Shown: positions 20,897 through 39,164 of the stretch, piece by piece
Numbering within the stretch: position 1 is the stretch's first letter
Layout of the letters: each line of letters starts with the position of its first letter
Origin: an uncultured Kiloniellales bacterium
Lineage (GTDB): Bacteria > Pseudomonadota > Alphaproteobacteria > Kiloniellales > JAKSDN01
Direction of reading: 5' to 3'
Length of the DNA: 45,763 nt
NCBI GenBank assembly: GCA_947258885.1
Contig: CAMYKD010000016.1
Span: forward strand, 1,850-47,612
Notes under the pieces: model-generated
What the model was told of the DNA's origin: nothing
The model's input: the letters and a program-made list of their open reading frames with translations, nothing else
Database searches by the model: none
Position numbers and translations under genes: made by a program

Positions 20897-20951
20897 CGAT
20901 TCCTCCACTGGCCGGAGTCTCGGCCCACGCTGCCGGGCGGGCCGGCTAGTT

Positions 20952-20970
20952 GTCCCGATCCGGTCGGGAC
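20952..20970. promoter_or_regulatory. Perfect hairpin in the ftsA-ftsZ spacer
   Basis: GTCCCGA-TCCGG-TCGGGAC: 7-bp stem, 5-base loop, in the 90-base gap before ftsZ. No U-tract follows in the direction of transcription. It may mark a processing site, attenuator or operator that sets FtsZ level relative to FtsA. Confidence 0.4.
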
Positions 20971-20986
20971 GTCCGGATTGTCGAAC

Positions 20987-22261
20987 TCAAAAATGCTCAC
21001 GGACCCAGTCTCCTAGTCGGCCCATAAAGCTACTCGGGTGCTTTGTTCCCGGTATTGGCTGTCGGGATGCGGCCAGATTGCTCTCGACGGCACAGGTCAA
21101 GAGTCCGGCGCAGGTCGCGAAGGCCGGTCCGCTGGTCGCCTCGGCCAGGCCCAGCGCCCGATTCGGCCGGCCGATCCGCACTTGCTTGTCCAGGACCAGG
21201 GCCGCCAGGTCGCGCAGGCCCGGCAGTTGACTGGCGCCGCCGGTCAACACCACGCGGCGCCCGACCACTTGGCCCAGCCCGCTGGTTTCCAGACGCGAGC
21301 GGACCAGCTCGAAGGTTTCTTCCAGGCGCGGCTGTATGATCCCGAACAAGATCGAACGCGGAACTTGCTGGGAGTCGTTCTCTTGTTGGTCCTCGCCGAC
21401 CCGGGGCACGTCGATCATCTCGCGCTCGTCGTCGGCGGCGGCCATGGCATGTCCGTATAGCGTCTTCAGCCGCTCGGCGTGGGCCACCGGGGTCGACAGC
21501 CCGCGGGCGATGTCGTTGGTGACGTGAATGCCGCCCACCGGGATCAAATCCGTATAGATGACGTTGCCACCGAAGAACAAAGCGATCGTGGTCGTTCCAC
21601 CGCCCATGTCGACCAGGGTCACGCCCAGGTCCATCTCGTCCTCGACCAAGGTGGCCAATCCGGCGGCGTAGGGCGAGACGACGAAACCGGCGACACTCAA
21701 GTGACATCGTCCGATGCAGGTCGTCAGGTTGCGCACCGCGCTCGCCCCCGCGGTGACCAGGTGCATCCTGACGCCCAGCCGTTCGCCGTACATGCCGCGT
21801 GGATCGCGAATGCCACGGCTGTCGTCGATGCTGTAGCCGACCGGGATCGAGTGGATCAGTCGCCGGCTCTGGCCGTTCATGTCGCTGGCGCCGTTGACTT
21901 GGCGGCCGTGTTGAAGGGCACGGCGCAGGTCGGATTCGCCGACTTCGTGACCCGCGATGGACACCTCGATACCGATCGAATTCGAGGCGGGATGGCCACC
22001 CGAAAGATTGACAACAACCTGGTCGATGGTATCGCCGGCCATCTGCTCTGCAGCGTGCACGGCGTTCCGGATGGCGCCTTCGCAGCCCTCCATGTCGACC
22101 ACGTTGCCGTTCCTCACGCCCCGGCTGGCCTGTTGGCCGATGCCCAGGACGCGCGGCCGTCCGGTGTCCTCCGTCGCGGCTATGAAGCAACAGACCTTGC
22201 TGCTGCCCACGTCGAGCGCGGCGGTCAGACCGTTTCGTGTCTTGCCGAGGCCGGTTCTCAT
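20987..22261 (-). CDS. ftsA: Cell division protein FtsA
   Basis: A 424-residue actin-like ATPase. Phosphate loops are 'AALDVGSSKVCCFIA' and 'TLVDMGGGTTTIALF', and the adenosine motif is 'VVLTGGASQLPGL'. The C-terminus ends in an amphipathic helix, 'FMGRLGDWVREHF', which anchors FtsA at the inner membrane. It tethers FtsZ via the FtsZ C-terminal peptide. The gene lies 44 bases after ftsQ and 90 bases before ftsZ; these are the only clear gaps in the second half of the dcw cluster. Confidence 0.97.
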   Translation of the reverse strand: MRTGLGKTRNGLTAALDVGSSKVCCFIAATEDTGRPRVLGIGQQASRGVRNGNVVDMEGCEGAIRNAVHAAEQMAGDTIDQVVVNLSGGHPASNSIGIEVSIAGHEVGESDLRRALQHGRQVNGASDMNGQSRRLIHSIPVGYSIDDSRGIRDPRGMYGERLGVRMHLVTAGASAVRNLTTCIGRCHLSVAGFVVSPYAAGLATLVEDEMDLGVTLVDMGGGTTTIALFFGGNVIYTDLIPVGGIHVTNDIARGLSTPVAHAERLKTLYGHAMAAADDEREMIDVPRVGEDQQENDSQQVPRSILFGIIQPRLEETFELVRSRLETSGLGQVVGRRVVLTGGASQLPGLRDLAALVLDKQVRIGRPNRALGLAEATSGPAFATCAGLLTCAVESNLAASRQPIPGTKHPSSFMGRLGDWVREHF

Positions 22262-22305
22262 TTCAATCCGTCTTTCTTCCCCTCTCGCGTCTCACGCCGG
22301 GCCTC

Positions 22306-23178
22306 TCAGGTGTCGCGGCCCGCCTTGGACACGGCGTTTCTTATGCGAGCGTCCGGCGCCGTGCGAACCACCAGCCGGCCGGGCAGCCGTAGGTCGATGG
22401 CCACCACATCGCGCCCCAGCACGCCGTGCTCCCGTTCGAGCCGGGCCAACTGCATCCAAGCCTCGGCGGGATCGGTCTCGGGCAGCCGCACGTCGATCCC
22501 ACCCCGCAGGTGCAGGTTCCAGCGGCGTCCGCTGACCCTGACCGCGGCCGTGACCAGCGGCCTGAGATCAGGCTCGCGGTCGAGCATGGCGATCAGGGCC
22601 GCGGCGTGTTGGGGCGCTCCCTGGCCGACCACCAGCGGCAGTCGGGCGAACTGCTTGGCCGACACGCCCGGTATCGCTTGCCCCCTCCGGTCGATCACCG
22701 ACAGTTTGCCGTCCAACTGCCAGAGCGCGAGCGGGCTGCGCTCGGTTAGGTGGATATAGACCAGCTTGGGCAGGCGCCGCTCGACGGTCGCCCGGCGCAC
22801 CCAGGGCAAGGCCTCCAGCCTCGCCCGGGCGGCCCGCGGGTCGATCGCCAGGATGGGGGTGCCGCGTTGGACCTTCAGAGCCGCCAGAATAGCGGCCCGG
22901 TCCGTCCGTCCGCGCCCTTCGACCAGCACGTCGTCGACCGCGAATCCGGCGTCGGCTGTGAGCTGATACGCGGCCTCCGCCATGCGGTCGGCCTGCCGGC
23001 CCAGCCAGCCGTTGCGCCAAAGCCATGCGGAGCTGGCCAGGGACAGGACGAGCGCGATGCCGACCCCGACGCTCAGAGCGCGCCGCCGGCCGAACCTGGG
23101 GCGGGCGCGGGGATGGACCGGCTTGCCGCTGCGCGTCTTTGCCGGGCGTGGCCGGGTCTTGGCAATCAGGTGTCGCAT
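22306..23178 (-). CDS. ftsQ: Cell division protein FtsQ
   Basis: A 290-residue bitopic inner-membrane protein. It has a basic cytoplasmic tail (1-33, many Arg/Pro), one transmembrane helix (about 36-54, '[19 protein letters not shown]'), then a POTRA domain starting '[19 protein letters not shown]' and an FtsQ domain. It bridges early and late division proteins (FtsB/L) in the periplasm. The ATG at 23178 lies inside the end of ddl, a 13-base overlap, so the two are translationally coupled. Confidence 0.94.
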
Positions 23179-24089
23179 GCGGCGTTCTCCACCAGCCAGG
23201 CGCAGAGGTCGGCGAACGAGATGCCTTGATGCGCGGCTTGTTCCGGGACCAGGCTCATCGGGGTCATGCCCGGTTGCGTGTTGACCTCGAGCAGGAAGAG
23301 TTCGCCCGGCTTGCCCCGCGTGTCGTCGTAACGGAAGTCCGCGCGGCTGATCCCGCGGCAGCCGAGCACCCGATGTGCTCGTAGGGCCATGTCCATGGCC
23401 TCGTCCGCGATCTTCTTGGGCACCTTCGCGGGGACCACGTGGCTGGCGGCATGCTCTTCCGTGTACTTGGCCTCGTAGTCGTAGAAGCCCTCTTGCGGCC
23501 TGATCTCGGTAACCGCAAGCGGCCGCTCGCCCATGACGGCCACGGTGAGCTCGCGTCCGGCCACGTAACGCTCGACCATCACCATTTCGCCGAATTGCCA
23601 GGTCGTACCCGACAACGGCGGCTCGTTGGCGCCTTCGGCGACGATGCGCACGCCGACGCTCGAGCCCTCGTTCGGCGGCTTGATGACGTAAGGCCGGGCC
23701 ATGACATCGCCGGCCAGGACCTCGTCGCGGTGGACGAGGATCCCCTCGGGACAGGCCAGCCCCGCGGCGGCGAAGAGCTGCTTGGCCATGGGCTTGTCCA
23801 TGGCCACCGCCGAGGCCAGCAGGCCGGAATGGGTGTAGGGAAGCTGCATCAGATTCAGGACGCCCTGGATGCAGCCGTCTTCGCCCCAACGGCCGTGCAG
23901 GGCGTTGAAGACCGCGTCCGGGCGCGGGGAGAGCGCCTCGAGCAGCGCGCCCAGGTCGTGGCCGACGTCGATTTCGCTCACCTTGTAGCCGGCATCCCTG
24001 AGTCCGGCGGCGCACTCTCGGCCGCTCACCAGCGAGACCTCCCGCTCGGCCGAGGGGCCGCCCATGAGGACAGCGACGCGCTTGGTCAT
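23166..24089 (-). CDS. ddl: D-alanine--D-alanine ligase
   Basis: A 307-residue ATP-grasp enzyme making the D-Ala-D-Ala dipeptide for peptidoglycan. Seen: '[17 protein letters not shown]' at the N-terminus, '[16 protein letters not shown]', '[13 protein letters not shown]', 'YDYEAKYTE' and the metal-binding '[11 protein letters not shown]'. The length fits the DdlB type found in dcw clusters. The start overlaps the murB stop by 4 bases (ATGA), and its 3' end contains the ftsQ start. Confidence 0.97.
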
Positions 24090-25036
24090 CCGGAATCCTC
24101 CGAATTCGGCTCGTCGGCGGGAACCCCGATCCGGCGGATCTCCCAGTCGAGTTCGACGCCGCTCGCCGCATGGACCCGCCGCCGCACCTCCTCGCCCAGC
24201 TTCTCCAAGTCGGCCGCGGTGGCGTCGCCGGTGTTGATCAGGAAGTTGCAGTGCTTGTCGGAGACCATGGCGCCGCCGCGCCTGAGGCCGCGGCAACCGG
24301 CCTGGTCGATCAGCTGCCAGGCCTTCGCCCCGGGTGGGTTCTTGAAGGTCGAGCCGCCGGTGCGGGTGCGCAGCGGCTGGCTTTCGGCCCGCGTCTCCTG
24401 GATCTTGGCCATGCGCGCGGCGATCGCGTCCGGCTCGTCCGCTCCGCCGCGCAGGCGGGCGCCCAGGAAGATCCAGTCCTGCGGTACCGCGCAGCGGCGA
24501 TAGGCGAAGCCCAGCGCCTCCGAGTCCAGCCGGTGTATCCGGCCCCGGGGGTCGACGGCCTCGGCCCAGACCGCGACGTCCTTCGTCTCCCGGCCGTAGG
24601 CGCCTGCGTTCATGCGCAGCGCGCCGCCGAGCGTGCCGGGCACGCCGCACAGGAACTCGAGCCCGCCGAGGCCCGCGCGTCGGGCGGCGGTCGCCACGTT
24701 GAGGTCGAGGGCCCCGGCGCCGCACACAAGGTCATTGCCCTCGACGGCGATCTCGACGAAGCCGCGACCCAGGCGCAGCACGACGCCCGGCACGCCGCCA
24801 TCGCGGACCAGCAGGTTGGATCCGACCCCGATCACCGTGACCGGCACGTCCGCCGGCTTGGCCCGCAGGAAGGCCGACAGATCCTCGCGATCGGCCGGCC
24901 GGAACATCACTTCGGCCGGACCGCCGACCCGGAACCAGGTGATGCCCGCGAGCGCCGCGTTCTCGCTCAGGCGGCCGCGCACGGGCGGCAGCCGGTCGAT
25001 CAAGCGGGAGGCTGGCGGCGCGGTCATCGGCATCAT
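24086..25036 (-). CDS. murB: UDP-N-acetylenolpyruvoylglucosamine reductase MurB
   Basis: A 316-residue FAD enzyme that reduces UDP-GlcNAc-enolpyruvate to UDP-MurNAc. The FAD-binding part has '[17 protein letters not shown]' and 'MNAGAYG'; the catalytic serine is in '[10 protein letters not shown]'. Three Met codons (25036, 25033, 25027) are close together; the first overlaps the murC stop in an ATGA and is chosen. Coupled to ddl downstream in the same way. Confidence 0.96.
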
Positions 25037-26475
25037 GGCCCCGTCCCCGCCGGCTTCGAATCGCCGGCGTTCGACGGCTCGGCCAGCTGCTGCGGCAGGG
25101 CGTTCGCCCAGGCCGTGATGTTGCCGGCGCCAAGACAGACCACCATGTCGCCCGGCGCGGCCAGCTCGCGGATCATGCGGGGCAGGTCCCACTCGCTGTC
25201 CAGGGGTTGGGCGTGGCGGTGGCCGTGGGCGCGCAGTCCCTCGACCAGGGCGTCGCGGTTGACCCCCTCGATCGGCGACTCGCCGGCGGGGTAGACCTCG
25301 GCCACGATGACCTGGTCGGCGTCGTTGAAGCAGCTGCAGAAATCCTCGAAAAGGGCGGCCAGGCGCGAGTAGCGATGCGGTTGAACGACCGCAACGACCT
25401 TGCCCTCGGTGGCCTGCCGGGCAGCGTTCAGGACCGCTGCGATCTCCACCGGATGGTGGCCGTAGTCGTCGATGACCGTGACGCCGCCGATTTCTCCGGT
25501 CTTGGTGAAACGCCGCTTGACGCCGGCGAAGTCGGCGAGCCCTTTGCGGATCACCGCCTCTTCCAGGTCGAGCGCACCGGCTATGGCGACGGCGGCGAGC
25601 GCGTTCTGTACGTTGTGCCGGCCCAGCATGGGCAGGATCAGATCTTGGATCCTGTGCTCCGCGTCCTGTCTCCGATAGGTCAGCACGACGTCGAAGCGGG
25701 TTCCCTCCGGCTCGTTCACGATGTTCGTAGCGCGCACCTCGGCCTGAGGGCTCAGCCCATAGGTCACGATGCGGCGGTCTTCGATGCGCCCGATCAGCGA
25801 TTGGACCACCGGGTGGTCGATGCACAGCACCGCGAAGCCGTAGAAGGGGATGTTCTCGATGAAGGCCTCGAAAGCGCCGTGCAGGGCCTCGGCCGAGCCG
25901 TAGTGATCCATATGCTCCGGATCGATATTGGTGACGACCGCTATGGTGGCCGGCAGCTTCACGAAGCTGCCGTCGCTTTCGTCGGCCTCGACCACCATCC
26001 AGTCGCCCTCGCCCAGACGGGCATTGGTACCATAGGCGTTGATGATGCCGCCGTTGATGACGGTCGGGTCGAGGCCGCCGGCATCGAGCATTGCGGCGAC
26101 CATCGAGGTGGTGGTGGTCTTGCCGTGGGTGCCGCCGACGGCGACCGACCACTTGAGCCGCATCAGTTCGCCCAGCATCTCGGCCCGGCGCACGATCGGG
26201 GCGAATCGCTCGCGCGCGGCGAGGACCTCCGGATTGTCGGGTGTGACCGCCGAGGAGATCACAACGACCTGGGCCTCGTCGACGTTCGCCGGCGCGTGGC
26301 CGATCGTCACCTTGACGCCGAGTTTCCGCAGGCGCTGTACGTTGGGGTTCTCCGCGATATCGCTGCCCTGCACATGGTAGCCCAGGTTGTGCAGGATCTC
26401 GGCGATGCCGGACATGCCGATCCCGCCGATGCCGACGAAATGGATAGTGCCCAGGTTGAGTGGCAGGCCTCTCAT
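25033..26475 (-). CDS. murC: UDP-N-acetylmuramate--L-alanine ligase MurC
   Basis: A 480-residue Mur ligase adding the first amino acid (L-Ala) to UDP-MurNAc. The N-terminal Rossmann domain starts '[17 protein letters not shown]', which binds the UDP moiety. The ATP P-loop is 'GGTHGKTTT' (about 114-122), followed by '[11 protein letters not shown]', '[11 protein letters not shown]' and '[10 protein letters not shown]', all diagnostic of MurC. The ATG at 26475 overlaps the murG stop (ATGA). Confidence 0.98.
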
Positions 26476-27626
26476 GCGGCGGCCTCGTTTCTTTCGCCGC
26501 GGTCCGGCTCCTCGCCCCCATTGGAATCGGTCTCCGGGAACACCAGATCGGCCAGGCGCCGGGCGGCGTCCGGGTGGGCGACTGCGCCCGCGCACTGGGC
26601 GGCGCGGGCCAATAGCGCGGGTGTCGCGAAGAGGGCGCCGAGCCGGTCGGCCAGGACCTCGGGGCTCAGCGACCGGTCCGGAATCAGCCAGGCGCCGCCG
26701 GCATCGACCAGGGCCTGGGCGTTGGCGGTCTGGTGGTCGTCCGTAGCGAAGGGGTAGGGCACCAAGATGGCCGGTCGGCCGGTCGCAGCCAGCTCGGCTA
26801 TGGTCGAGGCGCCCGCGCGGCAGATGGCCAGGTGAGCGCCGGCCAGGCGCTCCGGCATGTCTTCGAGGAACCCGGCGAGGTGCGCCGCCACCCCGCATTC
26901 CCGGTAGACCGCCGCGACGCGCTGGAGAGCGTCGCCACGCACCTGCTGGCTGACCTCCAGGCGGCGGCGCAGGGTCTCGGGCAGGCGCTGGACGGCCGCG
27001 GGGACGACATCGTTGAAGGCGCGCGCGCCCTGGCTGCCGCCGGTCACCAGAAGCCGCAGCCTGCCGGCTTGGTCGGGCGGGGCATAGGGCCCACGGCCGA
27101 CCTCGGTGATGGCCGGACGCACGGGGTTGCCGGTCACCGTCACCGAGGCGTGGCCGGCGGGGTCAAGACCTTCGACCCGAGCGAAGCAGGTGCCGATGGC
27201 CTGCGCCCGCGAGGCCAGGACCCGGTTGGCCCGGCCGAGAACCGCGTTCTGCTCATGCAGCACCACGCGCAACCCAGCCCGGGCGCCCGCCAGCACCGTC
27301 GGGACAGAGGGATAGCCGCCGAACCCGACCACGGCATCCGCCTCGAGCCGTTTGACCAGGCCGCGGGCCTGCAGGAAACCGACAGCCAGGCTGAGCAGCC
27401 CCTTGACCCTCTTCAGCACGCTGCCGCCGGCCACCCCGCCGGCGCTGATCCGATGGATTTCGACCTGGTACAGGTCCGGCCCGAATCCGGCGCCGCGCCG
27501 GTCGGTCACCAGCGCGACCGCACAGCCCCGGGCAAGCAGTTCGCGCGCCAGGGCCTCGGCCGGGAACATGTGCCCGCCGGTGCCTCCGGCGGCCAGCACG
27601 ACCTTGCGTGGCGGGGCGGCGTTCAT
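26472..27626 (-). CDS. murG: UDP-N-acetylglucosamine transferase MurG
   Basis: A 384-residue GT28-family enzyme on the inner face of the membrane that converts lipid I to lipid II. Motifs: '[16 protein letters not shown]' at the N-terminus (acceptor-side G loop), '[13 protein letters not shown]', '[12 protein letters not shown]', '[13 protein letters not shown]' and '[25 protein letters not shown]'. Starts with ATGA overlap on ftsW and overlaps murC in the same way at its end. It has a slightly extended Glu/Asp-rich C-terminus ('[17 protein letters not shown]'). Confidence 0.97.
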
Positions 27627-28747
27627 ACCGCCTCTCCGATCCCGACACGCCGCCGGGTCAGGCCCAGCACCATGCCCATGGCGAGCGCCAGGGCCAGCAA
27701 GGAGGAGCCGCCATAGCTGATGAACGGCAGCGTCATGCCCTTGGTCGGCATCAGGTGCAGGGTCGAGGCCATGTTGATCAGCGCTTGCAGGCCGAACTGC
27801 GCCAGCAGGCCGCCGGCCGCCAGAAGCACGAAGAGGGAATTGTCCTGGAAGACCCGGGCGAAGCCGCGCAGGACGACGAAGCCGAATAGGGCGAGAATGA
27901 TCAGGCAGGCGATCAGCCCGAGCTCCTCGCCGGCCACCGCGAAGATGAAGTCGGAATGGGAATCCGGCAACAGCGCCTTCACCGTGCCTTCTCCCGGGCC
28001 ACGCCCGAGCAGGCCGCCGTTCATGAAGGCCTCGATCGAGCGATCGATCTGGTAGCGGTCACCGGCCTGCGGATCGAGAAAGGAGTCGATGCGGGCACCG
28101 ACGTGGGGCAGGGCAAAATACGCGATGGTCAGGGCCAGCAGACCGGCCGCACTCAGCAGACCGACCCACAGCAGGGGCAGGCCGGCGAGGAAGAACTGGA
28201 AAGCCCAGACGGCGGTGACCAGGAAGGCCTGGCCGACATCGGGTTGCAGCAGCAGCAGCGTCATCGCGGCGAGCCACAGCACGATCGCGATCGTGCTGCC
28301 CGGGATGCCCTCTTCGCCCTTCTCCGCGGCGAACATCCAGGCCGAGACCACGACGAAACAGGGCTTCAGGAACTCCGAGGGCTGAAGCGACAGGCCGGCG
28401 AGGCTGATCCAGCGGGTCGCGCCCTTGATTTCGACCCCGATCGACAGGGTCAGGAGGCAGAGGGCCAGCGACGCCGCGAAGCCGATGACCGCCAGGCGCC
28501 GGATCCAGCGCGGGTTGAGCAGGGAAACGCCGATCACGGTCAGCACGGCTAGAGGCAGAAGCGCGAACTGCCGCTGCGCCAGCCGGAACCCGGGTAGGCC
28601 GATCCGCTCGGCCACCGCGGGCGAGGCGGCCAGAACCAGGACCGCGCCAAAGCCCATGAGAACGATCAGGGCCGCCAGAATCCAGCGGTCCACGGTCCAC
28701 CACCATTGGCTCAGCGCGCTCGTGTCGGTCCGCGCGAAGGCGGTCAT
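27623..28747 (-). CDS. ftsW: Peptidoglycan glycosyltransferase FtsW
   Basis: A 374-residue SEDS-family membrane protein with about ten transmembrane helices. Hallmarks: 'KGATRWISLAGLSLQPSEFLKP', 'QPDVGQAFLV', a periplasmic loop with 'GRGPGEGTVKALLPDSHSDFIFAVAGEELG', and 'MPTKGMTLPFISYGGSS' near the C-terminus. It polymerises septal glycan from lipid II together with FtsI. The ATG at 28747 overlaps the murD stop by 4 bases. Confidence 0.97.
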   Translation of the reverse strand: MTAFARTDTSALSQWWWTVDRWILAALIVLMGFGAVLVLAASPAVAERIGLPGFRLAQRQFALLPLAVLTVIGVSLLNPRWIRRLAVIGFAASLALCLLTLSIGVEIKGATRWISLAGLSLQPSEFLKPCFVVVSAWMFAAEKGEEGIPGSTIAIVLWLAAMTLLLLQPDVGQAFLVTAVWAFQFFLAGLPLLWVGLLSAAGLLALTIAYFALPHVGARIDSFLDPQAGDRYQIDRSIEAFMNGGLLGRGPGEGTVKALLPDSHSDFIFAVAGEELGLIACLIILALFGFVVLRGFARVFQDNSLFVLLAAGGLLAQFGLQALINMASTLHLMPTKGMTLPFISYGGSSLLALALAMGMVLGLTRRRVGIGEAV

Positions 28748-30159
28748 TGCAGCACCCTCCCGCTCGGATCCAGGTCCGCATGGCGGCCCGGCAGGGCTTC
28801 GACCAGGGTGCGGAAGCGCTCGCCGCGTTCCTCGAAGTCGGAGAACTGGTCGAACGATGCCGCCGCCGGGGACAGCAATACGACTGCGCCCGTCCGCTTG
28901 TCGGCCTTGGCCGCCGCCTGGGCCAGATCGGTCGCGCGGTCCAGGTCGCCGCAGCGCGCAAAATCGACCCGGCCGTCCAGGGCCGTGGCGAAAGCGTCCT
29001 CGGCCTCTCCGATCAGAAAGGCCCGCGCGATCCGCGGGAACAAAGGCTCGAGGCCGGCCAGCCCGGTCTCCTTGGGCCGTCCCCCGGCGATCCAGTAGAC
29101 GGCGTCGTAGCAGGCCAGCGCCTTGGCCGCGGCGTCGGCGTTGGTTGCTTTGGAGTCGTTGACGTAGCTGACGCCGTCGATCACGGCGACCAGCTCCTGC
29201 CTGTGCGGCAGGCCGGGGAAGCTGCGCAGGCAGGCGGCGATGACCGGCGGCTGTACGCCGAGCGTCTTGCACGCCGCATAGGCGGCCGCGGCGTTCTGCC
29301 GGTTGTGGCGGCCCGGCAGGCTGGGCACTTCGCGGAGATCGAGAACAGGAGCTTTGCCGCCCTCGGTATCGTCGGTCAGGACGCCGCCGTCCGCATGAAC
29401 GCCGCCCTGTGCGGGACCGCTGCCCGAGACCGGGATGACGATTTGCTCGCCGGCCTCCGTCAGCTGCCGGCAGATGCCCCGGCAGGTCTCATCGTCGACC
29501 CCGATCACCGCGGTGCGGGGCCTGGTCTGGCGATGGAATATCAGCCGCTTGGCCGCGACATATCCCTCGAGGCCGCCGTGCCGCTCCAGGTGGTCCGGCG
29601 TGACGTTGAGCAGCACGGCCACGTCGAAGGTGACCGACAGGGTGAGCTCGAGCTGGTAGCTCGACATCTCGAGCACATAGATGCCGCTCGAGTCGAGTGG
29701 CTCCAGGTCGAGCGCCGGCGTGCCGAGGTTGCCGCCGACCTGGACCTCGCGTCCGGAGGTCTCGAGGATGTGACCGATCAAGGCGGTGGTCGTGGACTTG
29801 CCGTTGGTCCCCGTGACTCCGAGATAGCTGGCGTCGCGCTGGGAGCGTGCCAGCAGCTCGATGTCGCCGATGATCTCGCAGCGGTGTTCGCGCGCCAGGG
29901 CGGCCACAGGATGGGGCGCGGGGTGGCTGTGCGGGATGCCCGGCGAGATCACCAGGCTGGTCAGCTCCCGCCAGTCGCAGCCGGTCAAGTCGACCAGCGG
30001 AATCCCCCCGGCCGCGGCCGTGGCGCGGCGCTCGACGTCGTCGTCCCAGGCCCAGACCTCGGCACCGCTCGCCATCAGCGCGCGGGCCGCCGACAGGCCC
30101 GACCTGCCGAGCCCGAGGACCGCCACCGGAAGGCCGCCGAAGAAGGAAAGGTCAATCAC
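28744..30159 (-). CDS. murD: UDP-N-acetylmuramoylalanine--D-glutamate ligase MurD
   Basis: A 471-residue Mur ligase adding D-Glu. The N-terminal dinucleotide-like fold is 'VAVLGLGRSGLSAARAL'; the ATP P-loop is 'GVTGTNGKSTTTALIGH' (about 115-125). 'LEMSSYQLE', 'LNVTPDHLERHGG' and 'LPGRHNRQNAAAAYA' are typical, as is 'WIAGGRPKETGL' in the C-terminal domain. It starts 12 bases after mraY and overlaps ftsW at the end. Confidence 0.97.
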   Translation of the reverse strand: MIDLSFFGGLPVAVLGLGRSGLSAARALMASGAEVWAWDDDVERRATAAAGGIPLVDLTGCDWRELTSLVISPGIPHSHPAPHPVAALAREHRCEIIGDIELLARSQRDASYLGVTGTNGKSTTTALIGHILETSGREVQVGGNLGTPALDLEPLDSSGIYVLEMSSYQLELTLSVTFDVAVLLNVTPDHLERHGGLEGYVAAKRLIFHRQTRPRTAVIGVDDETCRGICRQLTEAGEQIVIPVSGSGPAQGGVHADGGVLTDDTEGGKAPVLDLREVPSLPGRHNRQNAAAAYAACKTLGVQPPVIAACLRSFPGLPHRQELVAVIDGVSYVNDSKATNADAAAKALACYDAVYWIAGGRPKETGLAGLEPLFPRIARAFLIGEAEDAFATALDGRVDFARCGDLDRATDLAQAAAKADKRTGAVVLLSPAAASFDQFSDFEERGERFRTLVEALPGRHADLDPSGRVLQ

Positions 30160-30171
30160 GCCGGCCGCCCT

Positions 30172-31260
30172 TCATCTCAGCTTCAAGGTGGACAGCCCGG
30201 CAAGGGCCAGGATCACCGCGATGATCCAGAAGCGGATCACGATGGTCGGTTCGGCCCAGCCCTGCTTCTCGAAGTGATGGTGCAGGGGCGCCATGCGGAA
30301 TATGCGCCTGCCGGTCAGCTTGAACGAGGCGACCTGAACGATGACCGAGATGGTCTCCAGCACGAAGAGACCGCCGATGATGGCGAGCACGAGCTCGTGC
30401 TTGGTGATGACCGCGACGCCGCCGAGCGCGCCGCCGCAGGACAGCGATCCGGTATCGCCCATGAAGACCATGGCCGGCGGGGCGTTGAACCAGAGGAAGC
30501 CGAGGCTGGCACCGACCAGCGCGGAACAGAACACGGCGAGCTCGCCGGTGCCGGCCACGTAGTGGACCTGCAGGTAGCCGGCGAAGACCGTGTTGCCGAC
30601 CAGCCAGGCGATCAGCGCGAAGCATCCGGCGGCGATCATGACCGGCACGATGGCCAGGCCGTCGAGCCCGTCGGTCAGGTTGACCGCGTTCGACGCGCCG
30701 ACCATGACGAAGACCGCGAAGGCCACGAAGAACCAGCCGAGGTTGAGCAGGACGCCCTTCAACAGCGGAATCGCCAGGTGGGTCTGCATCTGCTCGGGGC
30801 TGATGTGGACGATCCACAGGGTGGCGGCGGTGCCGATGGCGATCTGGGCCAGGAACTTGAAGCGGCTCGGCAGGCCCTTGGAGCTGCGCCGCGTCAGCTT
30901 CAAGTAGTCGTCGCCGAAGCCGATCATGCCGAAGCCGATGGTGACGAAGAGAATCGCCCAGACGAAGCCGTTCGTGAGGTCGGCCCAGAGCAGCGTGGAA
31001 ATGGCGATCGCCATGAGGATCAGCACGCCGCCCATGGTGGGGGTGCCCTGCTTGGTCAGCAGATGGCTCTCCGGTCCGTCGTCGCGGATCGGTTGGCCTT
31101 CGCGTTGCTTCGACTTGAGCCAGGCGATCACGCCGGGCCCCAGGGCGAAGCTGATCAGGAGCGCGGTGATCACCGCGCCGCCGCTGCGGAAGGTAAGGTA
31201 GCGGAACACGTTGAAGATGATGTGTTCGTCTGCGAGCGGGACCAGGAGGTTGAATAGCAT
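30172..31260 (-). CDS. mraY: Phospho-N-acetylmuramoyl-pentapeptide transferase MraY
   Basis: A 362-residue polytopic enzyme (about ten helices) that makes lipid I from UDP-MurNAc-pentapeptide and undecaprenyl phosphate. Catalytic/Mg2+ motifs: 'GFGDDYLKL', '[13 protein letters not shown]', 'FMGDTGSL', and the substrate-binding '[13 protein letters not shown]'. The ATG at 31260 has GAGAGG seven bases upstream; the in-frame ATG at 31275 is less likely because it overlaps murF. It is one of the few dcw genes here with its own clear ribosome-binding site rather than an ATGA overlap. Confidence 0.97.
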
Positions 31261-31271
31261 GGGTGTGCCTC

Positions 31272-32699
31272 TCACTCGCCGTTGGCCGCGCGCGCCGGGT
31301 CGCCCTCGAGCGATGCCAGCGCCTCGATCACCAGGGCCATGCGGCTGCCCTGAGAGCCCTTGACAAGGACCGTGTCGCCCGGCCTGAGCCCGGCGGCGGC
31401 CAAGGGCGCCAGGCTCCGGGCATCGGCGGCGTGCCCGCCGCGACGGGCCTTGGGCAGGGCGTCGTGCAGTGCCGCCATGTTCGGACCGCAGGTGAAGACC
31501 AGGTCGATTTCAGCCGCCTCGATCGGCTCGGCCAGCTTGGCGTGCAGCCTTTCGGAGTCCCGGCCCAGCTCCAGCATGTCGCCGAGGACTGCGATGCGCC
31601 GGCCGCCCTTGCCGAGCGGGGTTTTTTGCAACACCTCGAATGCCGCCTGCATGGAGGCCGGATTGGCGTTGTAGGCGTCGTCGATCAGCTCGAAGCTGCC
31701 GCCGGGCAGGGGCAGCACTTGGCGTGCGCCGCGTCCCTTGAGCGGCTTGAGGGTCGCCATCTCGGCGGTCGCCGCGCGCAGGTCCGCGCCGACCGCCAGG
31801 ATCGTCGCCAGCACGGCCAGGGAGTTCATGACCCAGTGGGCGCCCGGCAGTCCGAGGCAGTAATCGAGCAGCTTGCCGCCGACCAGCGCGCGCACCGTGC
31901 TGTGGCCGCCGTGCAGCGAGCAATTGATGAGACGGGCATTGGCCTCCGGGTGCCGCCCGAAGCTGACGATCCGGGTCACGCCGGCCGCCTCGGCCCGTTC
32001 GACCAGCAGGGTGAAGAAGGGGTGCTCGCGGTTCAGTACCGCCGCTCCGCCCGGCTCCACGCCCTCGAAGATCTCGGCCTTGGCCTTGGCGATCTCCTCG
32101 ATCGAGGCGAAGTATTCGCTGTGCGCCGCCTCGATGGCGGTGATCAAGGCCACGTGCGGACGGACTAGGCGGGTGAGCTGGCGGATCTCGCCCGGGTGGT
32201 TCATGCCCATCTCGAATACGCCGTAGAGCGCCTGCGGCCGCATGCGGGCGAGCGACAGCGGAACGCCCCAGTGGTTGTTCAGGCTGCCCATGCTCGCCGC
32301 GGTCGGCGCCTGGGGCGCAAGGCAGTGCCGCAGGGCCTCCTTGACCCCGGTCTTGCCGACGCTGCCGGTCACGCCGATGAAGCGGGCCTCGCTGCGCGCC
32401 CGGGCGGCCGCGCCGAGCGCGGTCAGCGCCGCCAAGGTGTCTTCGACCAGAAGCAGCGGCGCCGACTCGGGCACTCCCTCGGGCCGGTGCTGCGCCACGG
32501 CCGCCACCGCGCCGGCGTCAAATGCCGCGGCGATGAAGCCGTGGCCGTCGAAGCTCGGGCCTTCGAGCGCGACGAACAGATCGCCCGGCTCCAGGCTGCG
32601 GCTGTCGATCGAAACGCCGGTGGCCGCCCATTCGGCCGTGTTGCGGCCGCCGGTCGCCTTGGCGGCCTGGCCGGCGGTCCAGAGGGGCGCAGGGTTCAT
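31272..32699 (-). CDS. murF: UDP-MurNAc-tripeptide--D-alanyl-D-alanine ligase MurF
   Basis: A 475-residue Mur ligase adding the D-Ala-D-Ala made by Ddl. N-terminal '[18 protein letters not shown]' binds UDP; the P-loop is '[15 protein letters not shown]' (about 109-121). '[11 protein letters not shown]' and '[11 protein letters not shown]' are diagnostic of MurF. It overlaps the murE stop by 4 bases (ATGA) and is followed by mraY after an 11-base gap. Confidence 0.97.
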
Positions 32700-34174
32700 G
32701 ACCGACCCTCCGCCAGGCGGGCGACGACGCCGCGCACCACGTCGCGGTCGTCGAAGGGCAGGACCTCGTCGCCGACGATCTGCCCGGGCTCGTGGCCCTT
32801 GCCGGCGACGATCAGCAGGTCGTCCGGGCCGAGCGCGGCCACGGCCGTCTCGATCGCCTCGGCCCGGTCGCCGATCTCCAGCGCTCCGGTCGCCGCCTCG
32901 AGGATCTCGTGCCGAATCGCGGCCGGGTCCTCGCTGCGCGGATTGTCGTCGGTGACGATGACCTGGTCGGCCAGGGAGCGGGCAACCTCGCCCATCTGCG
33001 GACGCTTGCCGCGGTCGCGGTCGCCGCCGGCACCGAACACGACGCAGAGCCGTCCACGGGTGTGTGGCCGCAGCGCCTCGAGCGCGCTGCGCAGCGCATC
33101 GGGCGTGTGTGCGTAGTCGACATAGACCTGGCCGCCGGAGGGCGCGCGCGCCACCAGCTCGAGCCGCCCGGCGACGCCGGTAAGGTGCGGCAGCGCGTCC
33201 AGCGCCGCCTCTGGGTCCGATCCGGTTGCGATGACCAGACCGAGCGCCGCCAGGACGTTGGCCGCCTGAAAGCGGCCGGCCAGGGGCAGCGCGATGTCAT
33301 GACGGCGGCCGAGGAGTTTCAGGGTGAGGCGTTGGCCCTCGGCCGCCGCGGCGACCCGGACGAGGCGGAGATCGCCACCCCCGGCGCCGTAAGCGAAGAT
33401 CTGCAGGCCGCGCGACAGCGCGGCGGCGCGCAGCGATTCGAACTCGGGTACGTCGGCGTTCAGCACCGCGCCGCCGCCCGGCAGTACCAGCTCGGCGAAC
33501 AGGCGCAGCTTCGCGGCCAGATAGGCCTCGCTGCCGCCGTGATAGTCCAGATGGTCGCGCGACAGATTGGTGAAGGCCGCCGCGCGGATCTCCACGCCGT
33601 CCAGGCGGAACTGATCCAGGCCGTGGCTCGAGGCCTCCATCGCCAGGTGCTCGACCCCGTCCCGGGCAAGCGCCGCCAGACAACGGTGCAGCTCGACCGG
33701 GTCGGGCGTGGTCAACGAGGCGGGCGCGTCGGGTCGTGGCGGCATCAGGCCGAGCGTGCCCAGGCTCGCCGCCTCTAGGCCCAACCGGCCCCAGATCTGG
33801 CGCGCGAATTCGGCGACCGAGGTCTTGCCGTTGGTGCCCGTGACCGCAGCGGTCACCGCGGGCTGGCGGCCGAAAAAGCGCGCCGCGATCAGCGCCAGCC
33901 GGCGGCGCGGGTTCTCGTCGGTCAGGAGGGCCACGGGCCGGCCGTGCTCCCCGACCGAGGTTCCGGGTGTGGTCAGCACCGCGACGGCGCCGCGCTCGAT
34001 GGCCTGGCTGATGAAATCGCGCCCGTCGCTGCGGCCGCCCGGGATCGCGGCGAAGAGGTCGCCCGGGGCGATCTTTCGGCTGTCCGCCGAAAGGCCCTGG
34101 ATCTCCAGTGTCTGCAGCGCCGCCGTGGGCTCCATCTCGATCGTCGTTCCCTCTGCCAGGTCAGTTAGCCGCAA
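32696..34174 (-). CDS. murE: UDP-MurNAc-L-Ala-D-Glu--meso-diaminopimelate ligase MurE, TTG start
   Basis: 492 residues from the preferred start. The P-loop is 'VTGTNGKTS' (about 111-119); 'TTPDPVELH', 'EASSHGLDQFR' and 'VDYAHTPDAL' are typical MurE. 'DNPR' (410-413) is the signature for the meso-diaminopimelate-specific enzymes, so the peptidoglycan is of the usual Gram-negative type. Start: a TTG at 34174 has AAAGGA seven bases upstream and gives the family-like N-terminus 'MRLTDL', overlapping the end of ftsI by 14 bases. An ATG at 34219 would add 15 atypical residues, and the first internal ATG would cut into the conserved domain less well. Confidence 0.95.
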   Translation of the reverse strand: MRLTDLAEGTTIEMEPTAALQTLEIQGLSADSRKIAPGDLFAAIPGGRSDGRDFISQAIERGAVAVLTTPGTSVGEHGRPVALLTDENPRRRLALIAARFFGRQPAVTAAVTGTNGKTSVAEFARQIWGRLGLEAASLGTLGLMPPRPDAPASLTTPDPVELHRCLAALARDGVEHLAMEASSHGLDQFRLDGVEIRAAAFTNLSRDHLDYHGGSEAYLAAKLRLFAELVLPGGGAVLNADVPEFESLRAAALSRGLQIFAYGAGGGDLRLVRVAAAAEGQRLTLKLLGRRHDIALPLAGRFQAANVLAALGLVIATGSDPEAALDALPHLTGVAGRLELVARAPSGGQVYVDYAHTPDALRSALEALRPHTRGRLCVVFGAGGDRDRGKRPQMGEVARSLADQVIVTDDNPRSEDPAAIRHEILEAATGALEIGDRAEAIETAVAALGPDDLLIVAGKGHEPGQIVGDEVLPFDDRDVVRGVVARLAEGRS

Positions 34175-35915
34175 AGACGGTTCCTTTGAGGTTGACGGGC
34201 ACCAGGTGACGGTCCGCACCTTCTTCCTCGTCCAGGGCCTTCGGCTGGATGCCGAGCAAGGGGCCCATGCGTTCGATCACCCGGCGCACCACCGGCGCGG
34301 CGACCCAGCCGCCCGTGGCATAGCCGTGCGTACTCTCGATGCCCTTTGGCTCGTCGATCATCGCGAAGATCACGTAGCGTGGCCGATCCATCGGAAAGGC
34401 CCCGATGAACGAGGCAATGCGGGCGCTTCTGGCATAGCGCCGGCCGCGCAGCTTGTCCGCCGTACCGGTCTTGCCGCCGACCAGATAGCCCGGGGCGTCC
34501 GCCAGGCGGCCGGTGCCGTTCTGCACCGCCAGACGCATCAGCCAGCGCATGTCGCGCGAGGTCCGCGCGCTCAGCACGCGCCGGACCACGACGCGCTCCC
34601 CGTCGCCGCGTTTCAGCAGGGTGGCGGGCACCAGGTCGCCGCCATTGACCACGGCGGCGACGGCGCCGACCATTTGCAGCGGGCTGACCGCGAGGCCGTG
34701 GCCGTAGGAGATCGTCATGGTGTTGATCTCGCGCCACGGCGAGGGAACCATCGGCTGGCCCACTTCCGGCACCTCGATCTGTGCCGCGCGGGTCAGCCCG
34801 AGATTGCCGAGGAAGGCCTTTTGGGCCGGCGTACCGGAGTCCATGGCCATGTGCACCGAGCCGATGTTGCTGGAATAGATGAAGATCTCCGGCACCGACA
34901 ACCAGCGGTTCTTCGGCTTGAAGTCACGGATCGTGTAGCTCGCCACGCGGATCGGCTGGCTGACGTCGTAGCCGTCCTGCAGGCCGACCGCGCCCTGGTC
35001 GAGCGCCATGGCCGTGGTGAAGATCTTGAACACCGATCCCATCTCGTAGACGCCCAGGCTGGCTCGGTTGAAGCGCGCGTCGCCGTCTGACTCGCCCGGC
35101 CGGGCCGGGTCGAAGCTGGGCAGGGAGGCCATGGCGACCACCTCGCCGTTCTCGGCATCCAGCACCAGCCCGGCCGCACCGATCGCCCGGAACGTCGCCA
35201 TGGCCGTGGCGAGCTCCTCGGTCAGGACGTGCTGCACACGGAGGTCGAGGCTGAGCGCCAGCGGCCGAGTCGCGCCGCGCAGCCGCTCTTCGAAAGCCTG
35301 CTCGATGCCGGACAGACCCCGGTTGTCCATGCCGGCGAAGCCGATCACATGCGCGGTCAGCGCGCCGTGCGGATAGACCCGGTCCGGCTCGTGCTGGAAA
35401 TAGAGCCCGGGAATGCCGAGGCGGTTGACCTCGTGCTGCTGGCGCGGCGACAACTTGCGCTTGAGCCAAACGAAGGACCTGTCGGCCGCGAGCTTGGCGG
35501 CGAGCTCGGGCTCGGGGAGTTCCGGCAAGGCCGCGGAAAGCCGTGCGGCCACCGCCTCGGGATCGAGGACTTGGCGCGGGTTGGCATAGAGGGACGCGGT
35601 CGGCAGGGTGGTCGCCAGGACCACGCCGTTGCGGTCGACGATGTCGGCGCGGATCGTCTCGAGGGCGTTGGACCGCGGTGTTGCGGCCAGGCGCGGCTCG
35701 TTGCCGTCCGTGAGCAGGCTGACGTCGACCAGGCGCAGACCGACGACCAGGAAGGCCATGGCGAAGATCAGGCCGGCGGCCAGGAGCCGGGTCCGGCCGA
35801 TCTCCAGACACTGCTTGATCGTGCCGTCGAGCAGGACCATCGAGGTCGGATCGGGCCCTGGATCCAGGTCCAGGGGGCGGCGTGTCTGCACGAAGGTCGC
35901 GTCCGGCCGGTTCAT
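34161..35915 (-). CDS. ftsI: Septal peptidoglycan transpeptidase FtsI (PBP3)
   Basis: A 584-residue class B penicillin-binding protein. It has a short cytoplasmic tail, one transmembrane helix (about 43-63), a PBP dimerisation domain ('ETIRADIVDRNGVVLATTL') and a transpeptidase domain with the active-site 'SVFK' (S294, K297), 'SSN' and 'KTGTADK' motifs. It crosslinks septal peptidoglycan with FtsW. The start overlaps the ftsL stop (ATGA). The C-terminus runs 20 or so residues past the last conserved strand and contains the murE ribosome-binding site. Confidence 0.97.
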   Translation of the reverse strand: MNRPDATFVQTRRPLDLDPGPDPTSMVLLDGTIKQCLEIGRTRLLAAGLIFAMAFLVVGLRLVDVSLLTDGNEPRLAATPRSNALETIRADIVDRNGVVLATTLPTASLYANPRQVLDPEAVAARLSAALPELPEPELAAKLAADRSFVWLKRKLSPRQQHEVNRLGIPGLYFQHEPDRVYPHGALTAHVIGFAGMDNRGLSGIEQAFEERLRGATRPLALSLDLRVQHVLTEELATAMATFRAIGAAGLVLDAENGEVVAMASLPSFDPARPGESDGDARFNRASLGVYEMGSVFKIFTTAMALDQGAVGLQDGYDVSQPIRVASYTIRDFKPKNRWLSVPEIFIYSSNIGSVHMAMDSGTPAQKAFLGNLGLTRAAQIEVPEVGQPMVPSPWREINTMTISYGHGLAVSPLQMVGAVAAVVNGGDLVPATLLKRGDGERVVVRRVLSARTSRDMRWLMRLAVQNGTGRLADAPGYLVGGKTGTADKLRGRRYARSARIASFIGAFPMDRPRYVIFAMIDEPKGIESTHGYATGGWVAAPVVRRVIERMGPLLGIQPKALDEEEGADRHLVPVNLKGTVFAAN

Positions 35916-36256
35916 CGTGCGTTCCTCGCGCGCGCCAGAATGGCGTCCAGGGTGGGTGTCGGGACCTCCGCCTTCCGCACCGCGCGTTGCGGCAGGTCGT
36001 CGAGCCGGATGACCTGGGTGCCGACCATTGGCGCCAGCCCGAGATGACGCCTAGCCAGATCGGAGAGTCGCGCCGGCTGGTTCAGATAGCTCCACTCGGC
36101 CTTGAGAATGTGGATCGCTTCCTGTCGCTCGAGGATCGACTGATGCTCCAGGCCGAGTTCCTCTTCCAGGCGCTGGACCTCGTATTTGACGTGGAACAGC
36201 CCGAGGGCGGCCACCATGATAGCGGTGAGCCAGACCAGAACCGCGATCCTGCTCAT
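35912..36256 (-). CDS. ftsL: Cell division protein FtsL
   Basis: A small bitopic protein of 114 residues. The transmembrane helix is about 3-22 ('[20 protein letters not shown]'), followed by a coiled coil with heptad leucines (about 24-60) and a short periplasmic tail with '[10 protein letters not shown]', typical of alphaproteobacterial FtsL. It forms the FtsQLB complex. Identified by size, topology and position between rsmH and ftsI, with ATGA overlaps on both sides. Confidence 0.92.
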
Positions 36257-37260
36257 GGCGAACCTCCCGTCCTGCCGTCGGTCCAGGCGGGGGCAACGGT
36301 GCGCTCGGCCGCGCGCAGACGGGCCGAGCGGGCTCGCGGGTTGGCCGCGGTTTCGCTTGCTTCCGGGCGCCGGGCCCCTTTGAAAAGCGGACGGAACGTC
36401 GCCGCCGGCCGGGTGCGCCCGGGCGTGTCGGGCAGATGGCGCGAGCCACGCGCGGCGCCACCGCTGCGCTCGCGGAGGAACTCCTTGACCGCACGGTCCT
36501 CGAGCGAGTGAAAGGCGATGACCGCCAGGCGGCCGCCCCGCCGCAGCAAGCGCTCGGCCGCGCGCAGGCCGCGATGAAGCTCGCCGATCTCGTCGTTTAC
36601 ATAGATGCGCAAGGCCTGGAACGTGCGCGTCGCCGGGTCCAGGCCCTCGGGGCCGCGCTTGATCACGCGGCGCACGGTTTCCGCCAGCTCGAGCGTCCGC
36701 TCGAACGGCCGCTCGCGGCGCGCCGCGACGATCGCGCGGGCGATCGGCCGGGACTTGCGCTCCTCGCCATAGCGGTAGAGCACTTCGGCCAACTCGCCCT
36801 CGGAAAGGCTGTTCACGACCTCGGCGGCGCTGGGCCCGGTGGCGCTCTCCGGACCGGCCATGCGCATGTCGAGCGGACCGTCGGCGCGGAACGAGAAGCC
36901 GCGCTCGGCCCGGTCGATCTGCATGGAGGACACGCCCAGATCGAGCGCGATGCCGTCGACCGGGGCCGTGCCGTGTTCTTCCATCAGGCGGTCCATATCG
37001 CCGAAGCGCCCCTCGATGAGCGTCAGGCGGCCCGCGTAGCGTTCGACCAGGATCCCGCCGCCTGCCACCGCCTCGGGGTCGCGGTCGATGCCCCAGACCC
37101 GGCAGTCCGCGGCGTCGAGCAGGGCGGAGGCGGCGCCGCCGGCGCCGAAGGTGCCGTCCACATAGATCGCGCCGTCGCGCGGCGCCAGGGCCTCCAGGAC
37201 CTCGCGGAGCATGACCGGCGTGTGCGGCGCGGCGGCACGCCCTGTCGTGCCGGCGCTCAC
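36253..37260 (-). CDS. rsmH: 16S rRNA (cytosine1402-N4)-methyltransferase RsmH (MraW)
   Basis: A 335-residue SAM methyltransferase. The start '[13 protein letters not shown]' and SAM loop '[17 protein letters not shown]' are diagnostic, as are '[13 protein letters not shown]', '[14 protein letters not shown]' and '[12 protein letters not shown]'. It methylates C1402 of 16S rRNA. It is coupled to mraZ upstream and ftsL downstream by 4-base overlaps. The C-terminal 45 residues are Arg/Ala-rich and poorly conserved. Confidence 0.97.
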
Positions 37261-37724
37261 GAGGCGTCGCCCGGGCCGCGGCGCAGCGGCAGCGTTAGGC
37301 CCTGTTCGCGGGCCCGCGCGCGGGCCTCGGTCTTCTGGCGCAGCAGGGTTTCCGGCTCCCAGATCTGGAATGCGGCGCCCATGCCGACGAAACCGGCCCG
37401 CTCGGTGATGCCGGCGTGCTCGACCAGCGCCGGCGGCAGCAGGATCCGGCCTTCGCCGTCGAAGCTCAACTGGTGGGAGTCGGCGAAGATCGTGAAGGCG
37501 AGGTCTTCGTGGGCGTCGGAATAGAGGTCCGTGGCCGATACGCTCTCGTTCAACTGCTCCATGAACTCCAAGTCGCAGGCCTCGATGGCCTGGCCGCGGT
37601 AGGACGGACGGGCGATGATGCCCTGGAACGCGGAGCGTCCGAGGGCTTGGCGGAACGGCGCAGGGACGGAAACCCGACCCTTCCGGTCCACCTTGTTCTC
37701 GAAGGTGCCAAAGAACACCGCCAC
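37257..37724 (-). CDS. mraZ: Transcriptional regulator MraZ
   Basis: A 155-residue protein with two AbrB/SpoVT-like SXXXR domains. The N-terminal '[25 protein letters not shown]' is highly typical; the second copy is around '[24 protein letters not shown]'. MraZ binds TGGG repeats at the head of the dcw operon and controls it, including itself. Five such repeats lie 83-126 bases upstream. First gene of the cluster; rsmH follows with an ATGA overlap. Confidence 0.96.
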
Positions 37725-37806
37725 GCTCGTCTCCCGCGGCCTGCGCCGCCCGTTTCGATCCCCTGTCTCCCGCGTCTAGCTGCCCTGGGAGCAGATGCCC
37801 TCACAA

Positions 37807-37850
37807 TGGGACTAAGTGGGATATCATGGGATTTCATGGGTGTCAATGGG
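37807..37850 (+). promoter_or_regulatory. MraZ box: five TGGG repeats at 10-bp spacing
   Basis: TGGG occurs on the plus strand at 37807, 37817, 37827, 37837 and 37847, exactly one helical turn apart. This is the TGGGN-N5 direct-repeat pattern known for MraZ operators, here with five units rather than three. The repeats read on the strand opposite to mraZ. They overlap the likely -35 and -10 elements, so MraZ binding would block RNA polymerase. Confidence 0.85.
37818..37846 (-). promoter_or_regulatory. Putative dcw (mraZ) promoter
   Basis: On the minus strand, TTGACA (37846-37841) is followed after 17 bases by TATCCC (37823-37818). The -35 is a perfect match; the -10 is weak but has the TA start common in alphaproteobacteria. 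It lies about 95 bases upstream of mraZ and inside the MraZ repeats. Confidence 0.5.
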
Positions 37851-37872
37851 CGCACAAGTAAAACTCTCCCGG

Positions 37873-37888
37873 TTAAGAAGACGTTAAC
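37873..37888. promoter_or_regulatory. CtrA-type binding site (TTAA-N7-TTAAC)
   Basis: TTAA at 37873-37876 and TTAAC at 37884-37888 are separated by exactly seven bases. The minus strand also reads TTAA-N7-TTAAC, so the site is nearly symmetric. Full matches are rare by chance in DNA this GC-rich. CtrA is the alphaproteobacterial cell-cycle regulator that controls division genes in several species. The site is 26 bases upstream of the mraZ -35. Confidence 0.6.
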
Positions 37889-37988
37889 AGCGGTTCTTGA
37901 TGGCAGTGTCATGTAGTGGTCCAGATGTTGTGGCGACAAACTTTGGCGGCCCATAATGAAGCCTGTGTTCAGATTGTGTCAGAACTTT

Positions 37989-38003: not shown

Positions 38004-38115
38004 CAAAAATGGTTTGCGCGGGTGTGCGCGCAGGTGGTGCCGGAAACCTTTGTAACTGGGCGAAATGTGACCGCCGGCGGGCCGTTACGGCCTGCTGTTC
38101 CAACAAGGTATGAAA

Positions 38116-38446
<331 letters not shown>

Positions 38447-38453
38447 CCTTGGG

Positions 38454-38482
38454 TACCTAGGAGCGGACAGCCCCTCCGTCAA
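38454..38482 (-). promoter_or_regulatory. Putative rnpB promoter within the 3' end of the amidase gene
   Basis: On the minus strand TTGACG (38482-38477) and TAGGTA (38459-38454) are 17 bases apart and would start transcription near 38446, just before helix P1. The -10 overlaps the TAG stop codon of the amidase gene. The -10 is a poor match to consensus, but spacing and position fit. Confidence 0.45.
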
Positions 38483-39164
38483 GCCGGTCGGCGAGGGCGG
38501 AAAGGCGGGCCGCCGTCTCGCCGTCGACTGTACCGGTCACGGCGGCGGGCCGGAAATGGCGCTGGAAGGCCCGGATGACCGCCGGGTAGTCCTCGCCGAG
38601 GTAGCCGTAGCCGAAGCCGGCGAGCCGGGCCATGATCTCGTGCTCTGGCGGGAGGGGGCTCGCCGCCGGCACCTCTCCGGGCCACAGGCCGATCCCCGTG
38701 GCGGCCAGGCGCGCCCAGTCGAAGAGCTCGCCCGGGTCCTCCTTCCTGAGCGGCGCGACGTCCGAGTGGCCAAGCACCCGCTCGGGCGGGATCGGGTGGC
38801 GGGCCAGGATCTCCTGGGCGAGCGCGATCAGCGCCGCCATCTGCGCTTCCGGGAAGGGGCGGTAGCCGAACTCGTGGCCCGGGTTGACCAGCTCGATGCC
38901 GATCGAGCGCCCGTTGATGTCGCTCGATCCCGCCCAGGCCGCCACGCCGGCGTGCCAGGCGCGGCGCTCCTCGCCGACCAGCCGGCTCACGCTGCCGTCC
39001 TCGTCGATGAAGTAATGGGCGCTCACCTCGGTGACCGGATCCAGGAGGCGCCCCAGCGCCGCCTCGGCCGTCGGCATGCCGGTGTAATGCAGCAGCAGGA
39101 TGTCCACCGCCTGGCCATTCGGCCGGGCGTTATGGTTGGGCGAGGGACGGTCGTGGATTTTCAT
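38457..39164 (-). CDS. N-acetylmuramoyl-L-alanine amidase, AmpD/AmiD-like, with peptidoglycan-binding domain
   Basis: A 235-residue protein. An amidase_2 domain (about 15-160) carries zinc ligands in 'LLLHYTG' and 'LGHSDVAPLRKEDPG' and the conserved 'HYFIDEDGSV' and 'AWHAG'. A C-terminal peptidoglycan-binding-1-like helical domain (about 175-230, 'LAGFGYGYLGEDYPAVIRAFQRHF') follows. No signal peptide is visible, so it is probably cytoplasmic and cleaves anhydro-muropeptides in wall recycling; the binding domain makes it closer to AmiD in architecture. It lies 9 bases after the transporter gene and just ahead of rnpB. Confidence 0.88.
   Translation of the reverse strand: MKIHDRPSPNHNARPNGQAVDILLLHYTGMPTAEAALGRLLDPVTEVSAHYFIDEDGSVSRLVGEERRAWHAGVAAWAGSSDINGRSIGIELVNPGHEFGYRPFPEAQMAALIALAQEILARHPIPPERVLGHSDVAPLRKEDPGELFDWARLAATGIGLWPGEVPAASPLPPEHEIMARLAGFGYGYLGEDYPAVIRAFQRHFRPAAVTGTVDGETAARLSALADRLDGGAVRS

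Follow-up and report, generated by a model that had tools for sequence, protein, structure and literature searches.

Some division genes are known to be timed by CtrA. Its full palindrome in Caulobacter is TTAA-N7-TTAA, with ftsK, ftsQ and mipZ as division targets (PMC4287350), and ChIP-seq in Hyphomonas neptunium yielded the consensus TTAA-N7-TTAAC, in a study that gives ftsZ and potentially ftsQA as division targets in Caulobacter and ftsAKQZ in H. neptunium, and in which CtrA targets shift between lineages (PMC7200025). Cell wall/envelope biogenesis is an enriched category of predicted CtrA regulons, the main text of that study making no mention of mra, murE or ftsI (PMC2877005). In Sinorhizobium meliloti, a matrix search placed mraZ among the genes with CtrA motifs (PMC3616915), and a second paper counts it among genes with upstream CtrA binding sites (PMC4414408); the available text of neither paper describes a fixed register with a MraZ-box promoter. 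The main texts, supplements apart, of CtrA target studies in Caulobacter (PMC4287350), H. neptunium (PMC7200025) and S. meliloti (PMC4433202) leave mraZ unnamed, and the available portions of PMC11387232 and PMC9022086 contain nothing on a CtrA site at mraZ. More generally, the accessible text of the CtrA and mraZ/dcw literature, again supplements apart, offers no description of a fixed geometry between a CtrA box and a MraZ promoter.

The window, that is the whole 45.8-kb stretch of DNA analyzed here, carries a dcw cluster on its minus strand. The first gene is mraZ (37257..37724, GTG start), recognized by MraZ models with a best score of 160 bits, slightly below the cut-off of 162. Family matches identified rsmH, ftsL, ftsI, murE, murF, mraY, murD, ftsW, murG, murC, murB, ddl, ftsQ, ftsA and ftsZ on the same strand (within 19127..37260). 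When starts are taken from the longest ORFs, the genes from mraZ to murD overlap by 4-59 bp or are separated by a 12-bp gap, ftsQ-ftsA and ftsA-ftsZ are 44 and 78 bp apart, and lpxC lies 288 bp past the ftsZ ORF. Upstream of mraZ on the same strand is the gene for class A RNase P RNA (rnpB, 38114..38483), and a terminator-like hairpin (38015..38032, minus strand) stands between rnpB and the mraZ promoter; a terminator search of the stretch returned this one candidate versus 0.7 in shuffles, and the hairpin is hence weak alone.

The CtrA box is located between rnpB and mraZ, 163-149 bp upstream of the mraZ start codon. The plus-strand sequence at 37873-37888, TTAAGAAGACGTTAAC, matches the CtrA full-site definition TTAA-N7-TTAA(C) with its 7-base spacer, the final C included. 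When the preceding G is counted, the arms become fully symmetric and the box palindromic (GTTAA-N7-TTAAC, 37872-37888; coding strand TTAACGTCTTCTTAAC). TTAA-N7-TTAA occurs once in the window and never in 100 dinucleotide shuffles of it, and allowing one mismatch reveals no second place. Base composition predicts about 28 copies of TTAA for the window; there are 6, and both arms of the box are among them. In 20,000 Markov-1 simulations of the 389-bp intergenic stretch, which is AT-richer than the window, the box arose in 0.23%. The preliminary description had claimed an exact match with near symmetry, a rarity of TTAA in the genome and a place upstream of the whole dcw cluster; the sequence bears out each of these, the rarity as counted in the window and the place in that the box lies 5' of mraZ, from which the dcw genes run on the minus strand to ftsZ. 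This is the only full box of the cluster, and from gene order and tight spacing we infer that it would command all of the division and wall-precursor genes, with internal promoters possible. One further copy of TTAA, at 20880 near the start of the ftsZ ORF, stands alone and is possibly a half-site.

As checks on its proposal, the preliminary description had named conservation of the site and the presence of ctrA in the genome. Among 38 genomes of the order, mraZ was found in 36, the genome of the window included. The exact site was present upstream of mraZ in 20 of these 36, with two more carrying it in register with one mismatch. Its distribution follows families: within the sample of 36, all members of four families bear the site (f1, 5/5; f2, 3/3; f4, 7/7; f7, 7/7, five of them exact), and it is absent from four others (f3, 0/2; f5, 0/7; f6, 0/2; f8, 0/3; 0/14 in total), most of which have CtrA. 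Site-bearing relatives include Pelagibius litoralis (strain DSM 21314 recorded) and a Kiloniellaceae genome. A composite pattern, in which TTGACNCCC comes 18-30 bp after the box, gave matches in 34 of the 61 genomes examined from the order (control, 1), again by family (f4, 21/23; f1, 4/7; f7, 6/9; f2, 3/3; none in f3, 0/2, f5, 0/12, f6, 0/2, or f8, 0/3); a downstream mraZ was looked for at those of the 34 matches whose genome also belonged to the sample of 36. Because the genomes of the order are related, these counts are non-independent events. Across the class, 10 of 385 genomes carried the composite pattern (control, 3). Five of these ten had mraZ in the fetched stretch, three within the order and two outside it (G038 and G198), and the other five gave no mraZ match within fetched stretches of 1.6-3.1 kb. 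The architecture is therefore mainly a feature of this order, and a class-wide one was rejected on these counts.

The site is kept in many relatives at a near-fixed distance from the promoter. For this comparison, upstream regions were anchored on the -35 element together with the MraZ boxes. Of 118 loci, three gave no mraZ match and six were too short upstream; among the 109 remaining, 19 fell below the anchoring score, leaving 90 anchored regions. An exact box lies 40-44 bp before the -35 in 23 of them (40 bp in 7, 41 bp in 13, and 42, 43 and 44 bp in one each), and two regions have it elsewhere between 20 and 74 bp (L111 at 29 and L069 at 74). Two of the 23, L156 and L161, had been retrieved through the composite pattern, which contains the site, and the unselected figure is 21 of 88. 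Within the order, the box of site-bearing regions stands 40-42 bp before a TTGAC -35 with one exception, whereas the start codon is anywhere from 161 to 219 bp away. In L111, from the same family as the window, the box is shifted 12 bp towards the -10 relative to the window, roughly a turn of the helix. The sequence around the box differs among families; the arms are kept. The spacer is similarly specific: in 101 upstream regions, the 7-base spacer occurs in 23, whereas no other length between 0 and 24 is found in more than 2, and the other word pairs examined reach 6 at most. Loci L104 and L006, which are identical segments, count twice in this spacer control.

A site that arose by chance, or survives as a relict without function, would fit the many CtrA-bearing relatives that lack it and a conservation that is partly descent. 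We regard this as very improbable, given the Markov-1 chance of 0.0023 in the intergenic stretch, a spacer length and a near-constant register that hold in several families, and arms that stay while flanks differ. Chance origin was rejected on the shuffles, the spacer control, the register and the 8-base-spacer counts in the genome itself.

Those counts come from a search for the motif across the whole genome. The 7-base-spacer motif has 28 forward and 27 reverse matches, that is 55 strand-wise at 42 distinct places, compared with 5 + 6 for the reversed pattern and 2 + 3 (5) for an 8-base spacer. At 40 loci around other motif places, with genes called by a crude GC3-based caller, the site lies outside called ORFs in 37 and at most 350 bp upstream of a called gene start in 30. 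Genes so placed encode a DUF1153 protein, a family that we take to be SciP, FlaG, a PilZ protein, a GGDEF protein, a response regulator, a cell-wall hydrolase, DapF, DapD, two DUF2336 proteins and two CHASE-domain proteins, one with a HisKA domain; for many other genes after motif sites a link to the cell cycle is not evident. The two DUF2336 genes (L118:1639-2856 and L123:1604-2836) each begin about 100-120 bp downstream of a CtrA-type site. Upstream of dapF, of the diaminopimelate pathway, such a site lies at a distance of about 206 bp (L119, site 1473); that of dapD lies about 223 bp upstream and at the same time 68 bp upstream of a divergent GGDEF gene (L135, site 1546). The stretch upstream of ctrA itself holds degenerate sites only, three of them with one mismatch.

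The regulator is present in the genome as well. Its CtrA scores 429.7 bits against the NCBIfam equivalog NF045991 (cut-off 350), is 70% identical to a Caulobacter CtrA reference sequence, and has as its best solved-structure match the 4qpj receiver domain, whose chain is named cell cycle response regulator CtrA. ChpT was also found (PF10090, 78.3 bits), with a model to which Caulobacter alone responds among 14 control genomes. At E<=1e-70, CtrA is present in 22 of 22 site-bearing genomes of the order versus 10 of 14 without the site. The four genomes without clear CtrA (G011, G017, G018 and G030; best matches 35-42%) have no mraZ site, and a fifth without a CtrA match, G003, is 69% complete and yielded no mraZ. 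Loss of the site together with CtrA is suggestive only, because the four genomes represent two lineages and ten CtrA-bearing genomes also lack the site. The four show no clear enrichment of the full motif across their genomes, with 6 (G017), 0 (G030), 1 (G011) and 0 (G018) matches with the 7-base spacer versus 2, 0, 0 and 2 with the 8-base spacer; the site-bearing G004 has 30 versus 8. G023 and G036, two f5 genomes with clear CtrA and no mraZ site, show no genome-wide excess (4 versus 3 and 5 versus 3), and their reversed-pattern counts are higher still (19 and 13). CtrA's preferred site or regulon may therefore differ in f5. From these counts it follows, for a small and related sample, that mraZ carries the box in those genomes in which the full motif stands out genome-wide.

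The genome also encodes a second CtrA-like protein (G000:C5:43540-44217; L002:1501-2211), 61% identical to its CtrA and scoring 311.5 bits, below the CtrA cut-off. This paralogue, or another OmpR-family regulator such as CenR, might use the site in place of CtrA, and CenR was detected by ChIP upstream of Rhodobacter sphaeroides mraZ, where its authors report no motif and a possible artefact (PMC9275681). However, among the 38 genomes the paralogue is confined at E<=1e-70 to g1, the genus of the window, whereas the site spans many genera, which makes such a substitution very unlikely. CenR and NtrX were rejected as binders on their published motifs, TGA-N8-TGA and GCA-N9-TGC, both of which are missing from 37725-38113.

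The promoter downstream of the box is predicted to consist of a -35 hexamer TTGACA (37841..37846, minus strand), 41 bp from the first base of the box, and a -10 hexamer TATCCC (37818..37823, minus strand), which follows after 17 bp and is preceded by TGA, as in the extended -10 type. The TTGAC of the -35 is kept whether or not a genome carries the CtrA box. Five MraZ-type boxes, TGGG on the plus strand (CCCA on the coding strand), are repeated directly with a 10-bp period at 37807..37850, where they overlap the promoter from the -35 to the predicted start site; they conform to the definition of a MraZ box array (direct TGGGN repeats of about 10-bp period before mraZ). These repeats presumably match the MraZ box of E. 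coli. MraZ control alongside CtrA, which the preliminary description had also put forward, finds its expected counterpart in this array. Within 37725-38113, neither GANTC (CcrM) nor a full SciP motif was found, and SciP half motifs are too common in the window (819 and 855) to be informative.

Between box and promoter lies a second conserved element, TTTTACTTG (37855..37863, minus strand). In many alphaproteobacteria, whether or not they have the CtrA box, a TTTACT(T) stands a little way ahead of the mraZ -35. The element invites a different assignment, in which the box replaces the -35 of a separate promoter with TTTTACTTG as its -10 and a start about 39 bp from the 5' end of the box, like Caulobacter ctrA P2, where the full motif lies at -39 (PMC4287350). 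TACT indeed begins 13-16 bp before the downstream -35, about where such a -10 would be needed, in 14 of 24 deduplicated site-bearing regions, but it does so as well in 28 of the 67 regions that lack an exact box in register, a set that includes L111, L090 and L107 with their off-register or one-mismatch boxes. In this comparison L104 and L006 form one count, and their anchor was moved by hand by 11 bp, the automatic anchor having taken TTGAAA adjoining TTGACT; the register counts of 23 in 90 exclude that change. Moreover, TACT is out of position in the box-keeping loci L096-L099, L101 and L102 of genus g7, and a separate promoter does not require the kept distance between the box and the downstream -35. 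We therefore consider this assignment unlikely. Some box-less genomes have CTTG 33-36 bp before the -35, in the register of the box (15 occurrences in 67 regions), which gives the impression that an older element may have been overwritten by the CtrA box.

In our reading the box in front of the dcw cluster is a true point of CtrA control, and we consider it probable that, here, a dimer of phosphorylated CtrA regulates the mraZ-to-ftsZ promoter, overlaid with MraZ boxes. The dimer would bind the palindrome at 37872-37888 and act on the adjoining downstream promoter, TTGACA-N17-TATCCC, from which the cluster would be started, possibly as a single operon. The cluster would thus receive a cell-cycle signal through CtrA above the -35 and MraZ autoregulation through the boxes on the promoter itself. 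Because the box is kept in many relatives at a near-constant distance from the promoter, the arrangement suggests a link between the cell-cycle clock and the synthesis of division proteins.

Regarding sign, activation by CtrA appears somewhat more likely than repression, because the center of the box falls near -69 of the predicted start, a class I-like position (5' end near -77). In Caulobacter, the 5' end of an activating full site lies near -35 (PMC4287350), a rule that a hypothetical start 39 bp from the 5' end of the box would satisfy; the starts considered here are predicted ones. By the same binding step, CtrA could instead repress the cluster and keep division and wall-precursor synthesis low until it is removed, and mraZ and ftsL transcripts do rise in Caulobacter when CckA function is lost (PMC12421884). 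Caulobacter is, however, distant and the CckA effect may be indirect, and the box here lies upstream of the -35, not over the promoter. The OmpR-family regulator CenR has its sites upstream of the -35 in operons that it activates and over the promoter or start site in those that it represses (PMC9275681). We consider repression less likely than not.

If activation or repression through CtrA is real at this locus, the division and wall-precursor set would receive one cell-cycle signal at one place in this lineage, and MraZ would act locally on the same promoter as that signal. Part of the order would then have its CtrA division input at the dcw head, in near-fixed geometry with a MraZ-overlaid promoter, as a composite CtrA-MraZ switch serving division proteins and wall precursors together; we put this broader reading forward tentatively, as somewhat short of an even chance. 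With CtrA-type boxes also before dapF and dapD, diaminopimelate supply may therefore be timed with such a switch. We take the agrobacterial gene atu2434 to be other than mraZ. In agrobacteria, mraZ was among ten cell-cycle/wall genes examined, possible CtrA sites being named at atu2434 and atu3742 (rcdA), and predicted CtrA sites are found further upstream as well (PMC10469942).

Compared with known systems, the box shares motif and spacer with the CtrA full site of Caulobacter crescentus and H. neptunium. Unlike the division targets of these species, the cluster's full box stands at its head, before mraZ, and unlike typical Caulobacter activator sites it lies further from the predicted start. 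The closest parallel is S. meliloti mraZ, the same gene with the same regulator in one species; a CtrA site before mraZ has thus already been named there, and the box described here is a well-conserved new case. R. sphaeroides likewise has two-component regulators, NtrX and CenR, at, or detected at, the mraZ promoter (PMC7240162, PMC9275681), with motifs unlike the one found here. The TGGG direct repeats of 10-bp period at the mraZ promoter resemble those of MraZ autoregulation, but in contrast to the known cases the five boxes here overlap the predicted -35 and -10 and stand at a near-fixed distance from a CtrA box.
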